This document shows, one piece after another, positions 5,188 through 23,454 of a DNA stretch of 64,000 bases. The position numbers and the translations under genes were made by a program. The DNA comes from Agarivorans albus (lineage in GTDB: Bacteria > Pseudomonadota > Gammaproteobacteria > Enterobacterales > Celerinatantimonadaceae): the NCBI RefSeq assembly GCF_019670105.1, contig NZ_AP023032.1, forward strand, positions 3,979,501 to 4,043,500, given 5' to 3'. The notes below the pieces were generated by a model, which worked only from the letters and a program-made list of their open reading frames with translations, was not told where the DNA came from and did no database searches. The stretch's first letter is position 1; every line of letters starts with the position of its first letter.

Positions 5188-6633
5188 ATGAAAAATTATC
5201 AGATGTACATCAATGGTAGCTGGCTAGATGCAAAATCAGGAGCACGCGCCGAGGTACTTAACCCTTCAACTGAAGAAGTTATCGCCACTGTCGCTAATGG
5301 CGATGAAACCGATGCAGAGCTAGCCATGAGCGCAGCAGTTGCAGCACAAAAGCAATGGCGTAAGCTACCTGCTCGCAAACGTGCTGAAAAACTGTATGAG
5401 TTAGTGGCAGAGATTAAAGCTAACCGTGACTTCTTAGCCGAGCTGCTTGTGCAAGAACAAGGCAAGTTACTAAAAGTGGCGCGTATGGAAGTAGACGTAA
5501 CCTGCTCGTTTATTGAATACGCCTGCGAGTGGGCTCGCCACATTGAAGGTGACATAGTTGAGTCAGACAACCCTGACGAGCACATTTGGATCCACAAGGT
5601 ACCGCGTGGTGTAGTGGTAGCTATTACTGCATGGAACTTTCCACTAGCGCTAGCTGGTCGCAAAATTGGCCCAGCCTTAGTGGCGGGTAATGCGATTATT
5701 GTTAAGCCAACTACCGAAACACCATTAGCAACACTTGAGCTAGCAAAACTGGCCGACAAAGTTGGCTTGCCAAAAGGTTTGTTAAACGTAGTCACCGGTC
5801 CTGGTCGCTCTTTGGGCGATGCACTGGTTCGCCACCCAAAGACAGCCATGGTATCAATGACAGGCAGTACTCCTGCTGGCCAAGCCATTGTGCGAGCAGC
5901 CTCAGACAACCTAGCTCATGTACAACTAGAGCTAGGCGGCAAAGCGCCCTTTATCGTGCTCGACGACGCTAACATAGATGCGGCAGTAGACGCAGCGCTA
6001 AACTCTAAGTTCGATAACTGTGGTCAAGTATGTACTTGTAACGAACGTTTATATGTTCACGAAGCCATCTACACCGAGTTTATGGACAAATTGCTTGCCA
6101 AGGTGAAAGCCATAAAGGTAGGTGACCCAATGAACGAAGATAGCGACATGGGGCCAAAAGTAAGCGCTAAAGAGCTAGCCAATATGGAAGCCATGGTTGC
6201 TAAAGCCATAGAAGAGGGTGCCACCTTAGTCACTGGTGGTAAACGCTTAAGCGGCGAGGAGTTTGAAAAAGGCTACTGGTTTGAACCCACCGTGTTTACC
6301 GACGTAACCCAAGAGATGAGCCTCGTTCATGAAGAGATCTTTGGCCCTATTTTGCCCGTAGTTAAATTTACTGAGTTTGATGAAGTGATTAACTATGCTA
6401 ACGATTCTGAGTACGGTTTGTCGGCGATGATCTTCACCGACCGAATCAAACTAGTGATGGACTTGGTAAACGACCTTGAATGCGGAGAGATTTATGTAAA
6501 CCGCGGTCATGGCGAGCAACATCAAGGCTTCCACAATGGCTACAAACTAAGTGGCTCCGGCGGTGAAGATGGTAAATATGGTTTTGAGCAATACCTAGAG
6601 AAGAAAACCTTCTACGTAGATTTCTCAAAATAA
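5188..6633 (+). CDS. AldA-like aldehyde dehydrogenase (lactaldehyde/glycolaldehyde or sugar-aldehyde type)
   Basis: An NAD(P)-dependent aldehyde dehydrogenase of 481 residues. The family features are PWNFP-like AITAWNFPLALAGRKIGPAL, the glutamate in LELGGKAPF, and the catalytic cysteine in GQVCTCNER. It aligns along its length with remembered E. coli AldA, which oxidises L-lactaldehyde and glycolaldehyde. The frame opens at a TTG (5182), but the ATG at 5188 sits 6 bases after AGG, so 5188 was chosen. It starts 55 bases after the agarase gene, with a weak wobble-containing hairpin (5139-5158) between. The position suggests either lactaldehyde oxidation or oxidation of 3,6-anhydrogalactose from agar; the sequence alone cannot decide. 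Confidence 0.85.
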   Translation: MKNYQMYINGSWLDAKSGARAEVLNPSTEEVIATVANGDETDAELAMSAAVAAQKQWRKLPARKRAEKLYELVAEIKANRDFLAELLVQEQGKLLKVARMEVDVTCSFIEYACEWARHIEGDIVESDNPDEHIWIHKVPRGVVVAITAWNFPLALAGRKIGPALVAGNAIIVKPTTETPLATLELAKLADKVGLPKGLLNVVTGPGRSLGDALVRHPKTAMVSMTGSTPAGQAIVRAASDNLAHVQLELGGKAPFIVLDDANIDAAVDAALNSKFDNCGQVCTCNERLYVHEAIYTEFMDKLLAKVKAIKVGDPMNEDSDMGPKVSAKELANMEAMVAKAIEEGATLVTGGKRLSGEEFEKGYWFEPTVFTDVTQEMSLVHEEIFGPILPVVKFTEFDEVINYANDSEYGLSAMIFTDRIKLVMDLVNDLECGEIYVNRGHGEQHQGFHNGYKLSGSGGEDGKYGFEQYLEKKTFYVDFSK

Positions 6634-6654
6634 CACTCTTTTCTTAGGAAGTGA

Positions 6655-6685
6655 GCAAGCAACTTATTAGCGGTGAGTTGCTTGC
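6655..6685 (+). terminator. Hairpin after the aldehyde dehydrogenase gene
   Basis: Perfect 10-base-pair stem GCAAGCAACT/AGTTGCTTGC with an 11-base loop, 22 bases after the stop. No T run follows, so the terminator call is tentative. Confidence 0.45.
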
Positions 6686-6760
6686 TACCCGCAGTTTTGA
6701 AAATGGAGACCGCAATACTCAATAGCAATAATAATTAAACGCAAATACCAAGGGGATACT

Positions 6761-6847
6761 ATGTTCTACATCGGATTCTTTTTAAGCTTAGTAATGATCT
6801 ACTTAGGCGTGTTAGAAATCATTCAGCGGCAACGTGAACACTCATAA
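6761..6847 (+). CDS. Predicted 28-residue single-pass membrane peptide
   Basis: An ATG frame preceded by AAGGGGAT, a strong ribosome binding site with 4-8 bases of spacing. The product is a hydrophobic helix (FYIGFFLSLVMIYLGVLEII, residues 2-21) followed by a short basic tail (QRQREHS), so it would sit in the inner membrane as one segment. It lies alone between the aldehyde dehydrogenase terminator and the next gene. I do not recognise the family; known tiny membrane subunits such as CydX or KdpF look different. Function unknown. Confidence 0.5.
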   Translation: MFYIGFFLSLVMIYLGVLEIIQRQREHS

Positions 6848-7039
6848 TCATGCATCCTCTGCTTTAGGGTCGTAGCCAACAACACCGCTATAAAAAGGTT
6901 GGTGCGGGATAAGAGCAAGATACTCACTCAACTAAATATTAAGGATAGTTGGACAAGCATTACCCTTCTCACTAGTTTTACTCTAAGCCCATGATATGCG
7001 ATGCTTTAATGCGCTGGCATTACCATGGAAAATGGCTGA

Positions 7040-7786
7040 ATGAATGTGATAGAAAACAACACCCTCGCAGTGATAGTTCCGCAAATTCAGCTACAACTTG
7101 GCTACCAAATTGTTGAACTTGGCCACTCATACTTCTCCATCCAAAGCTTGGTCTCAATTGAAGATTTTCATCACCTTGCAGATTTAATGGAAGGAAATAT
7201 AGAAGGCCCGCTAAGCAGTCGATTTAGCCAAGAATATATGGCTCTAGCCGTATTAGGTGCAATTAACTATTGGCTACAAAAAAAGCAATTGGAACCTGAT
7301 GACCTAAATACTGCCAAGCGCTTGTCCACTAAGCTTGGCGACTACCTAAACTCGTTAAGCCAAAAACGAAAAGAGAGTGCAAATCTCTCACTACCAGCGC
7401 CAGATCAGGCCAATATAGGCGAACATTACTGCCTGTTTGAGTTTGCCGATGACTGGCAAGTAAAAGTAGGTAAGTGCAACTCAAAGCAAGCCTTCGGTAT
7501 TTACTTTGTTTGCCCGCTAGTCTGCGATGTGGAGCCACCGCTAGCATATATGCTGCAACAGATTAATGCCTACACTCAAGCTCTCTCCATTGCCCAGTTT
7601 AACGAAGCTGAAGTTAAGCCATGCTTGCAACAAGAACTTAGCAATTGGCTAGCACAATTTAGCCTGCAGCATCCTCAGGCAGTGCAATCTTATACGGAAT
7701 GGGAATTTGAAGAGCTGAGTCTCACCGAGCAAGCTTTATGCGAAGTATATTGCCAAGCACAGTCTTTGAAAGAGGCCCTCATCTAA
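7040..7786 (+). CDS. Hypothetical protein, 248 residues
   Basis: I do not recognise this family. The product is acidic and soluble, with no signal peptide or clear membrane segment. It has an N-terminal mixed region (residues 1-100), a glutamine- and leucine-rich helical part and an EFEELSLTEQALCEVYCQ helix near the C-terminus. Four of its cysteines lie between about 130 and 235. The frame has the codon usage of its neighbours. It is monocistronic, with about 190 bases before it and 180 bases after it. The ATG at 7040 is used; an upstream ATG at 7025 is stopped after four codons. Confidence 0.6.
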   Translation: MNVIENNTLAVIVPQIQLQLGYQIVELGHSYFSIQSLVSIEDFHHLADLMEGNIEGPLSSRFSQEYMALAVLGAINYWLQKKQLEPDDLNTAKRLSTKLGDYLNSLSQKRKESANLSLPAPDQANIGEHYCLFEFADDWQVKVGKCNSKQAFGIYFVCPLVCDVEPPLAYMLQQINAYTQALSIAQFNEAEVKPCLQQELSNWLAQFSLQHPQAVQSYTEWEFEELSLTEQALCEVYCQAQSLKEALI

Positions 7787-22235: not shown

Positions 22236-22439
22236 ATGTTTGAAGCCGTCCAAAAAGAAACTGTTTTTCAAGGTAACACTGCCAGCAGCACAAGCAATAA
22301 CGTTTATCGGTTTACCAGCAAGCGCAATAACCAGCTAAATCACCATCATGCTGAACTAAGCCTCCCTGTAGAGTACTTTGAGCAAACCCAGTTTAGCGAT
22401 CGCTGTCGACCTGGTGCTTATGCTAATCGCACTAGGTAA
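22236..22439 (+). CDS. Small hypothetical protein, 67 residues
   Basis: A frame with a good ribosome binding site (AGGAG, six bases before the ATG). The product is hydrophilic, with asparagine and serine repeats (ASSTSNN), a histidine run, and a basic C-terminus containing its only cysteine (SDRCRPGAYANRTR). No signal peptide or known domain is seen. The leader has two GC-rich hairpins, one GCGCC/GGCGC at 22199-22212. It lies at the left edge of the small-protein island but on the opposite strand from the peptide triplet. Confidence 0.5.
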   Translation: MFEAVQKETVFQGNTASSTSNNVYRFTSKRNNQLNHHHAELSLPVEYFEQTQFSDRCRPGAYANRTR

Positions 22440-22540: not shown

Positions 22541-22594
22541 TCCTGCGTTATTTCTGATCACTTACTTGGTGTGATTGGTATTAAACTCCCCATT

Positions 22595-22628
22595 AAAAAA
22601 GGCGATGTAAATCTACATCGCCTTTTTT
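22595..22628. terminator. Strong bidirectional terminator after the peptide operon
   Basis: Stem GGCGATGTA/TACATCGCC with a 4-base loop, flanked by six A and six T, so it works on both strands. It ends the leftward three-gene peptide operon 15 bases after its last stop codon. Confidence 0.9.
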
Positions 22629-22642
22629 AGTATTCTCAGTGC

Positions 22643-22837
22643 TTAACAAAAAGGTGATTGCACTTCGCCACGCAAGGCTTCACGCTGGCAGGTATGGCGG
22701 TCATTACCGCTAGTGCCTATTTGCACACTACCTTGCAAACTACTTGCAGGGGTAAATGAGGCTTGGCTAGCTGCGCTAAACATCAAAGCAGAACCAAATA
22801 CTACACTCAATATTGCTGAACTTAATGCTTTCATCAT
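22643..22837 (-). CDS. Secreted cysteine peptide precursor, third tandem copy
   Basis: A 64-residue precursor: Sec signal peptide ending ...MFSAASQA (residues 1-26) and a mature peptide of about 38 residues. The C-terminus is DRHTCQREALRGEVQSPFC, with the final cysteine as the last residue and 13 residues between the two cysteines. This copy has N in place of I before DRH. It lies last in the operon, 19 bases after copy two, with a TTCTTCTCC-complement ribosome site. Compared with copy two, the shared C-terminal 25 codons have nine silent and one amino-acid change. Family unknown to me. Confidence 0.8.
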   Translation of the reverse strand: MMKALSSAILSVVFGSALMFSAASQASFTPASSLQGSVQIGTSGNDRHTCQREALRGEVQSPFC

Positions 22838-22856
22838 TCTTCTCCTTCCCTAATGA

Positions 22857-23054
22857 TTAACAAAACGGCGATTGAACTTCGCCGCGCAGCGCTTCACGCT
22901 GACAGGTATGACGGTCGATACCGCTAGTACCTATTTGCACACTACCTTGCGCGCTATTTGCTGGGGTAAAAGAAGCTTGGCTTGCTGCACTAAACATTAA
23001 GGCTGAACCAAACACTACACTAACTAAACTGGTGGTTAACGCTTTCATCATCAT
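22857..23054 (-). CDS. Secreted cysteine peptide precursor, second tandem copy
   Basis: A 65-residue precursor with the same plan: signal peptide VVFGSALMFSAASQA, a short variable linker (SFTPANSAQGSVQ), then IGTSGI and the shared DRHTCQREALRGEVQSPFC end. Spacers of 19 bases on both sides and an AGGAGAATG-type start show it is one of three co-transcribed genes. Between this copy and the first, the last 25 residues are identical although 12 of those codons differ silently, so the peptide itself is kept by selection. Two alternative ATG codons precede MKAL; the first is used here. Confidence 0.85.
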   Translation of the reverse strand: MMMKALTTSLVSVVFGSALMFSAASQASFTPANSAQGSVQIGTSGIDRHTCQREALRGEVQSPFC

Positions 23055-23073
23055 TCTCCTAAAACTTATCTAC

Positions 23074-23265
23074 TTAACAAAACGGCGACTGTACTTCGCC
23101 ACGTAATGCTTCGCGTTGACAGGTATGACGGTCTATTCCACTGGTACCGATATTAGTGCTTCCTTGCGCCCCATTTAGGGGACCAACCGCCGCCTGACTC
23201 GCAGCGCTAAACATTAAGAACGAACCAAAAACTACGCTTAACATTGCTGACATAACGGCTTTCAT
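23074..23265 (-). CDS. Secreted cysteine peptide precursor, first tandem copy
   Basis: A 63-residue precursor, promoter-proximal in the leftward operon, with AGGAGA eight bases before the ATG. Signal peptide MSAMLSVVFGSFLMFSAASQA, then linker AVGPLNGAQGSTN, then the shared IGTSGI and DRHTCQREALRGEVQSPFC end. The linker differs most from the other copies, while the C-terminus is unchanged. In the periplasm the two cysteines could form a disulfide closing a 15-residue loop. Possible roles, all inference: signalling peptide, bacteriocin-like peptide, or envelope stress or cell-surface peptide. No immunity, export or maturation gene is adjacent. Confidence 0.85.
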   Translation of the reverse strand: MKAVMSAMLSVVFGSFLMFSAASQAAVGPLNGAQGSTNIGTSGIDRHTCQREALRGEVQSPFC

Positions 23266-23314
23266 TTTATTTCTCCTAGTAATGGCTTAACTCTGTATAG
23301 CCATGACCAAGAAG

Positions 23315-23333
23315 ACCTAGCTGTCTACTAGGT
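23315..23333. promoter_or_regulatory. Operator-like inverted repeat upstream of the peptide operon
   Basis: ACCTAG-N7-CTAGGT is a perfect 6-base inverted repeat 50-68 bases before the first peptide start. A -10-like TATACA lies between it and the gene on the minus strand (complement of about 23293-23298). The placement fits a regulator site near the -35 region. Confidence 0.4.
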
Positions 23334-23454
23334 TATTTCAAAGAAATTTAAATTTTTTTAGAAAAAAGTGAGAGAAAAAGGAAAAGTTACGGTTTTTCTG
23401 GCAGTTAGATACAGAAAAATGAGACGCGTGAGATTTAAATGCGGGGTAAAGATT

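Follow-up and report, generated by a model that had tools for sequence, protein, structure and literature searches.

A conserved family of small two-cysteine peptides in Agarivorans and its probable place in an envelope stress regulon

We describe an unannotated family of small proteins that is real and is represented by three tandem genes in a 64,000-nucleotide stretch of the Agarivorans albus genome (the window, whose coordinates are used unless another locus is named). The peptide operon has a conserved promoter in common with a distant gene for a membrane TVP38/FAD oxidoreductase and with a few other genes, and this promoter sharing, together with the gene neighbours, indicates an envelope stress regulon. 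We consider it moderately probable that, taken as a whole, the peptides are periplasmic members of an ECF-type regulon for envelope oxidant or soft-metal stress, in which the cysteine pair serves as a sink or metal binder. As judged from the DNA, membership in the regulon is well supported, while the cysteine-pair chemistry by itself is proposed tentatively.

The peptide operon and the age of its copies

The three genes lie on the minus strand at 23074-23265 (63 aa), 22857-23054 (65 aa) and 22643-22837 (64 aa), with spacers of 19 bases each, and all three peptides end in DRHTCQREALRGEVQSPFC, the last 19 residues being identical, in agreement with the first-pass annotation of this DNA. The leader (MK, a hydrophobic run and SQA ahead of the mature part) was judged by eye to be a Sec-type signal peptide, and the mature part of the second peptide, SFTP...SPFC, would by eye comprise 38 residues. 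Copies 2 and 3 could begin at more than one codon (MMMK, MMK or MK). The operon contains peptide genes alone, and the strong terminator ascribed to it is present as a terminator-type hairpin with a perfect 16-bp stem and a 4-base loop (22594-22629, minus strand), which the automated terminator scan of the window did not list. The window genome (G000) is complete, with 4.79 Mb, and carries exactly three copies.

The codon comparison of copies 1 and 2 reproduced exactly what had been reported, the last 25 residues being the same and 12 of the 25 codons differing silently. Strong purifying selection on the C-terminus is supported by dN of 0.078 vs dS of 1.05 between copies 2 and 3; for pairs 1-2 and 1-3 the full-length comparison finds the silent sites saturated. 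In Agarivorans sp. Toyoura001 (G005) the counterparts of copies 1 and 2 are separate genes at locus L004, and each copy is closer to its own counterpart (dS 0.42 and 0.77) than the two are to each other, which places the duplication before the split of these two species. By these distances copies 1 and 2 are old paralogues, and the earlier statement that they are not recent duplicates stands. Within G005 itself, however, the copies differ at just 4 of their final 19 codons, so some local gene conversion is possible in that genome.

Several other elements were observed around the operon. Upstream of the operon, a 29-aa ORF, MAVSSFRGASGASFCPSKS... (23600-23511, minus strand), encodes a microprotein that is conserved but unannotated; it is shared by the window, by G002, G003, G004 and G005 and by the peptide-less G006, and has no match in Pfam. 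A short ORF at 22236-22439 (plus strand), starting with MFEA[VIF]QKET and found also in G002, G004 and G005, has conserved ends and a variable middle and is preceded by a conserved GC-rich inverted repeat. The Rfam search of the window gave no match. The 5' leader of the peptide mRNA contains a CATGGCTGCGCAGTC-like box (23306-23290, minus strand), partly conserved in five lineages.

Family members and their distribution

Searches with a single protein and then with profiles detected the peptide in six of the seven genomes of the Agarivorans-type genus, with three copies in G000, G001 and G003, two in G005, one in G002 and one divergent copy in G004. The seventh genome, G006, retains the flanking genes in synteny, the 29-aa ORF and DUF454 among them, and has no peptide operon between them. 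Among the other genera of the same family the peptide was found in one of five genomes (G011). The profile search of a second family of the order detected clear relatives in 19 of 75 genomes. All 19 belong to a single genus, g28, of which 23 genomes were covered, and carry 1-3 mostly dispersed copies of the peptide.

These computations extend the family, defined by a C-x13-C core, to two bacterial families. The 28 aligned members have invariant M, K, D and two cysteines 13 residues apart, and G is nearly so at two positions; the invariant C-terminal motif of the first-pass annotation thus applies within the three copies, while the wider family keeps only the D, the two cysteines and mostly one G. 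In larger samples, in which up to 16-17 candidates were scored per genome, no lineage was added beyond the window's family and g28. In the order sample (394 genomes) 28 genomes matched at E<=0.01; 18 full-length matches were in f1 or g28 genomes, and the matches of the other 10 genomes, limited to profile positions up to 46, were rejected. The class-wide sample (369 genomes) contained no further true member; its three extra matches were rejected, two being antisense to a glutaminase-like gene and the third spanning profile positions 1-32 only.

The claim that the peptides belong to no known family held in Pfam, NCBIfam and PHROGs, where no fitting family, and none with an assigned function, was found; the weak matches were mostly of single members or signal-peptide stretches. 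The PDB sequence search gave one match (E 0.15), to the signal part, and no close relative was detected on plasmids, phages or IMG/VR contigs. The open-access papers searched for small or secreted peptides of Agarivorans contained nothing on this C-x13-C family. An AlphaFold model from the 28-row alignment was weak (pLDDT 62.9), too weak for a fold search.

Other small exported peptides were noted in the sister genera. Locus L059 of G011 has two of them beside the family member (5967-6134 and 6991-7170, plus strand), ending C-x(11-12)-C-x and having no match in Pfam. In G008, four near-identical secreted peptides that lack cysteine (MKLT.KITAAVFA...SYSIFN.TGH) are encoded in tandem (locus L057, 5264-6078, minus strand), and one of them was tested against Pfam without a match. 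The promoters of the two G011 peptides and of the G008 array do not match the Agarivorans promoter motif (7 of 12).

The shared promoter and the associated genes

The promoter in the window (23313-23340, minus strand) is ECF-like and consists of TGAAATA (23340-23334), a 16-base spacer and GGTCT (23317-23313). A five-way alignment of the DNA ahead of the peptide gene shows both elements and their distance to be invariant, and the promoter is conserved ahead of the peptide gene in 7 of the 8 genomes searched with the pattern. The 14-base form occurs once in the genome with 0 mismatches; a loose scan allowing 2 mismatches found 45 sites, while the reversed control had 48, and most of the 45 are accordingly due to chance. 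Exact matches to TGAAATR-N16-GGTCT numbered 24 in the eight genomes vs 13 for the reversed pattern. For 20 of the 24, an ORF begins no more than 160 bases away (7 peptide, 6 TVP38/FAD, 3 membrane protein, 3 YHS, 1 MsrP), and a 21st lies in a YHS upstream sequence without an ORF; in G002, three of five exact sites face no gene.

The four exact sites of the window genome are all 32-63 bases ahead of start codons, those of the peptide operon, the TVP38/FAD oxidoreductase, a 157-aa membrane protein that matches no family and by eye resembles DoxX, and a member of the YHS (seleno)protein family. All six genomes of the genus that carry the peptide retain the site at TVP38/FAD; in Agarivorans the peptide and TVP38/FAD genes are far apart and have the promoter in common. 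Close relatives contribute four TVP38/FAD and YHS sites, and these four are not independent. The two sites of G011 belong to its peptide and to MsrP. The peptide-less G006 has zero exact sites, and the TVP38/FAD gene was not found within 240 kb of that genome.

An operator-like inverted repeat had been annotated here, and the repeat does exist (ACCTAG-N7-CTAGGT, 23315-23333, no strand), but it sits inside the spacer of the conserved promoter. We consider it improbable that the shared motif is the operator of a conventional regulator and not an ECF promoter. In the window the repeat occupies the middle of the spacer; by eye, G005 and G002 show a repeat whose arms differ, and the YHS promoter has one too. 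By eye, however, G011 and the membrane-protein promoter lack it, although TGAAATR and GGTCT stay the same distance apart there. GTCT, moreover, does not correspond to a -10 element of sigma-70, and no sigma-70 promoter was predicted at the site. We favour recognition by an ECF-type sigma factor. Against this, the presence/absence screen gave no single ECF factor that occurs in G000, G002 and G011 and is absent from G006, and no TIGR02943 sigma factor was detected at E<=1e-20 in G000-G006 or G011.

The g28 peptides have a different upstream box, of the type GTAAKAA-N16-GTCTWA, scored as GTAATAA-N16-GTCTAA, a consensus drawn by eye from the same sequences that were scored. Of 36 distinct upstream regions (three duplicates dropped), 12 scored at least 11 of 13 for this box vs 0.25 in shuffles, and all 26 regions scoring 10 or more have the 16-base gap. 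The exact pattern gave 9 sites in the 23 genomes vs 10 in the reversed control, and because the raw counts are not above the reversed controls here and in the loose Agarivorans scan, the case rests on site positions. Four of the 9 sites are at peptides, three at one orthologous gene in three genomes and two elsewhere. The orthologous gene encodes a Cys-rich protein with NPCA repeats and SoxA/MauG-like cytochrome stretches, and its cluster includes TVP38/FAD, DUF6969, ArsS, two TIGR0428x glycosyltransferases, an OlsE-like desaturase and the ECF sigma factor TIGR02943. At one such locus (L138 of G420, 5620-7511, minus strand) the secreted product has many NPCA(A/V)K repeats besides the cytochrome stretches, DUF6969 follows, and the cluster also holds ArsS and TVP38/FAD.

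TIGR02943 sigma factors are present in 18 of the 23 g28 genomes, and peptide and sigma factor co-occur (both in 17, peptide only in 2, sigma only in 1, neither in 3; Fisher p 0.02, uncorrected for kinship). The box precedes the sigma gene at 11 or more of 13 in 6 of 18 cases (shuffles 0.16) and at 10 or more in 8 of 18 (shuffles 1.09), suggesting that this sigma factor is likely autoregulated in one clade; no box was seen at the other ten sigma genes. The peptides at L098 (G352) and L099 (G415) are without the box, and both genomes are without the sigma factor; the peptide at L103 (G412) also has no box, though its genome has the sigma factor.

In g28, 8 of 30 distinct peptide loci adjoin TVP38/FAD. 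Other neighbours are the desaturase/TIGR04282 end of the cluster (4 loci), DUF454 (4) and, as the only shared neighbour, a stress protein (3), and at 11 of the 30 loci no gene of the cluster lies close by. At L094 the peptide heads the run, directly followed by a short NPCA ORF and DUF6969. DUF454 also neighbours the operon in the window, separated from it by a single short ORF, and this points to a shared ancestral location.

Proposed role and comparison with known systems

The theme of the apparently co-controlled genes (the flavin oxidoreductase, MsrP, and the g28 Cys-rich and heme proteins) is envelope redox or soft-metal stress. The TVP38/FAD flavin oxidoreductase is related to the MerA and RclA models, though every match scores under the model's cut-off. 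We suggest that an envelope oxidant or soft-metal stress (copper, for example) would switch on a small regulon under the control of an ECF-type sigma factor, comprising the peptide operon, the membrane TVP38/FAD (MerA/RclA-like) oxidoreductase, the YHS-domain protein and the small membrane protein, to which the sister genus would add the periplasmic methionine-sulfoxide reductase MsrP. The three genes would encode Sec-exported, most likely periplasmic peptides, each a flexible linker with a short C-terminal unit that two cysteines 13 residues apart would close or through which they would bind. Three gene copies would give a high peptide dose, and the cysteine pair may then take up oxidant or bind metal.

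Three other roles were weighed. A ribosomal peptide with modified cysteines (e.g., by an MNIO enzyme encoded elsewhere) could be a bufferin-like copper-binding metallophore. According to PMC12452194, MNIO substrates are typically signal-peptide-bearing Cys precursors, and the genes of many precursors are not located near those for MNIO. In G008, locus L163 (9097-10258, plus strand) has in a row a TIGR02943 sigma gene, a zf-HC2 anti-sigma-like protein gene and a DUF2282 bufferin gene; the bufferin gene is thus the second after the sigma gene, and a related box lies 47 bases upstream of it. DUF2282, however, matches none of the 28 family members in Pfam at E<=1, no MNIO or DUF2063 was detected in the 17 window ORFs scanned around the operon (the three peptides included), and no rSAM peptide maturase was found among the scanned neighbours, making this reading unlikely.

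The peptides could also be small disulfide carriers, redox partners or substrates of the TVP38/FAD oxidoreductase and not a sink. The adjacency at 8 of 30 g28 loci and the common promoter in the six Agarivorans-genus genomes agree with this, but the other 22 loci are not adjacent, and the predictions made here give no support to a periplasmic flavoprotein domain; we regard such a carrier as quite unlikely. A released bacteriocin or pheromone would fit small, secreted, tandem peptides with a C-terminal loop of disulfide size, but it is the most doubtful of these roles, the scanned neighbours having no dedicated exporter, immunity or receptor gene, the leader being Sec-type by eye and not of the double-glycine kind, the sequence being extremely constant across copies and species, and the promoter being common to housekeeping-type redox genes.

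The earlier suggestion of a signal, toxin or surface peptide was not borne out, as promoter sharing and neighbours favour the envelope stress regulon. Beyond this regulon reading, one may speculate, with a good deal of doubt, that the peptides form a new class of envelope-stress peptide, two-cysteine and either unmodified or specially modified, that works with the TVP38/FAD oxidoreductase to detoxify periplasmic oxidants or soft metals, has been retained by two or more bacterial families and is expressed from two different ECF-type promoters.

A close regulatory parallel is the Neisseria sigma-E-type regulon, likened through promoter layout, with TIGR02943 in most g28 genomes and in none of the Agarivorans-type genomes or G011. 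The neisserial box, given in PMC2893595 as GTMAGBWTT, a spacer of 12-13 and CGTCTAAH, has the same layout as many g28 peptide boxes, the likeness being one of layout, while the Agarivorans box is related but different. DoxX and MsrA/MsrB are strongly sigma-E dependent according to PMC3240639, and Haemophilus RpoE2, linked to HOCl, controls MsrAB, MtsZ and a DoxX cluster according to PMC7907618. These regulons contain envelope repair genes, as here, and the zinc anti-sigma (zf-HC2) follows the G008 sigma gene. A simple oxidant role is contradicted by reports that meningococcal sigma-E expression was unchanged by oxidant exposure (PMC2893595) and that HOCl sensitivity was not raised in the Haemophilus rpoE2 mutant (PMC7907618); no such peptide is described in the sections of these reports covered here.

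Small exported peptides of ECF stress regulons, namely methionine-rich peptides and bufferins, are oxidant sinks and metal binders. MrpX and BcrX are methionine-rich hypochlorite sinks that go with MsrP/MsrQ, and the likeness to them is that MsrP shares the peptide promoter in G011. In contrast, none of the window's three peptides has a Met in its mature part (many g28 members have 1-3), the window operon has no MsrP/MsrQ, the MsrP link is through the promoter motif only and in G011, and the ECF16 box, TGTAAC-N17-CGAA, is unlike the Agarivorans box. The MrpX type is described in PMC8315932 as a small exported peptide of an ECF regulon with a methionine-sulfoxide reductase. Bufferins (Buf1, DUF2282, MNIO clusters) are likewise small Sec-exported Cys peptides tied to ECF sigma factors, from which the Agarivorans-type peptides differ in having two cysteines only, besides the lack of DUF2282 matches and of MNIO/DUF2063 among the scanned neighbours. 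The defining features of both groups were tested and not found, so the peptides are neither bufferins nor methionine-rich peptides. If the proposed role is true, they would offer a physiological handle on the widespread, little-studied TVP38/FAD oxidoreductase and TIGR02943 sigma factors, and would stand beside these two groups as a third, unannotated family of such peptides, built on a simple two-cysteine core.
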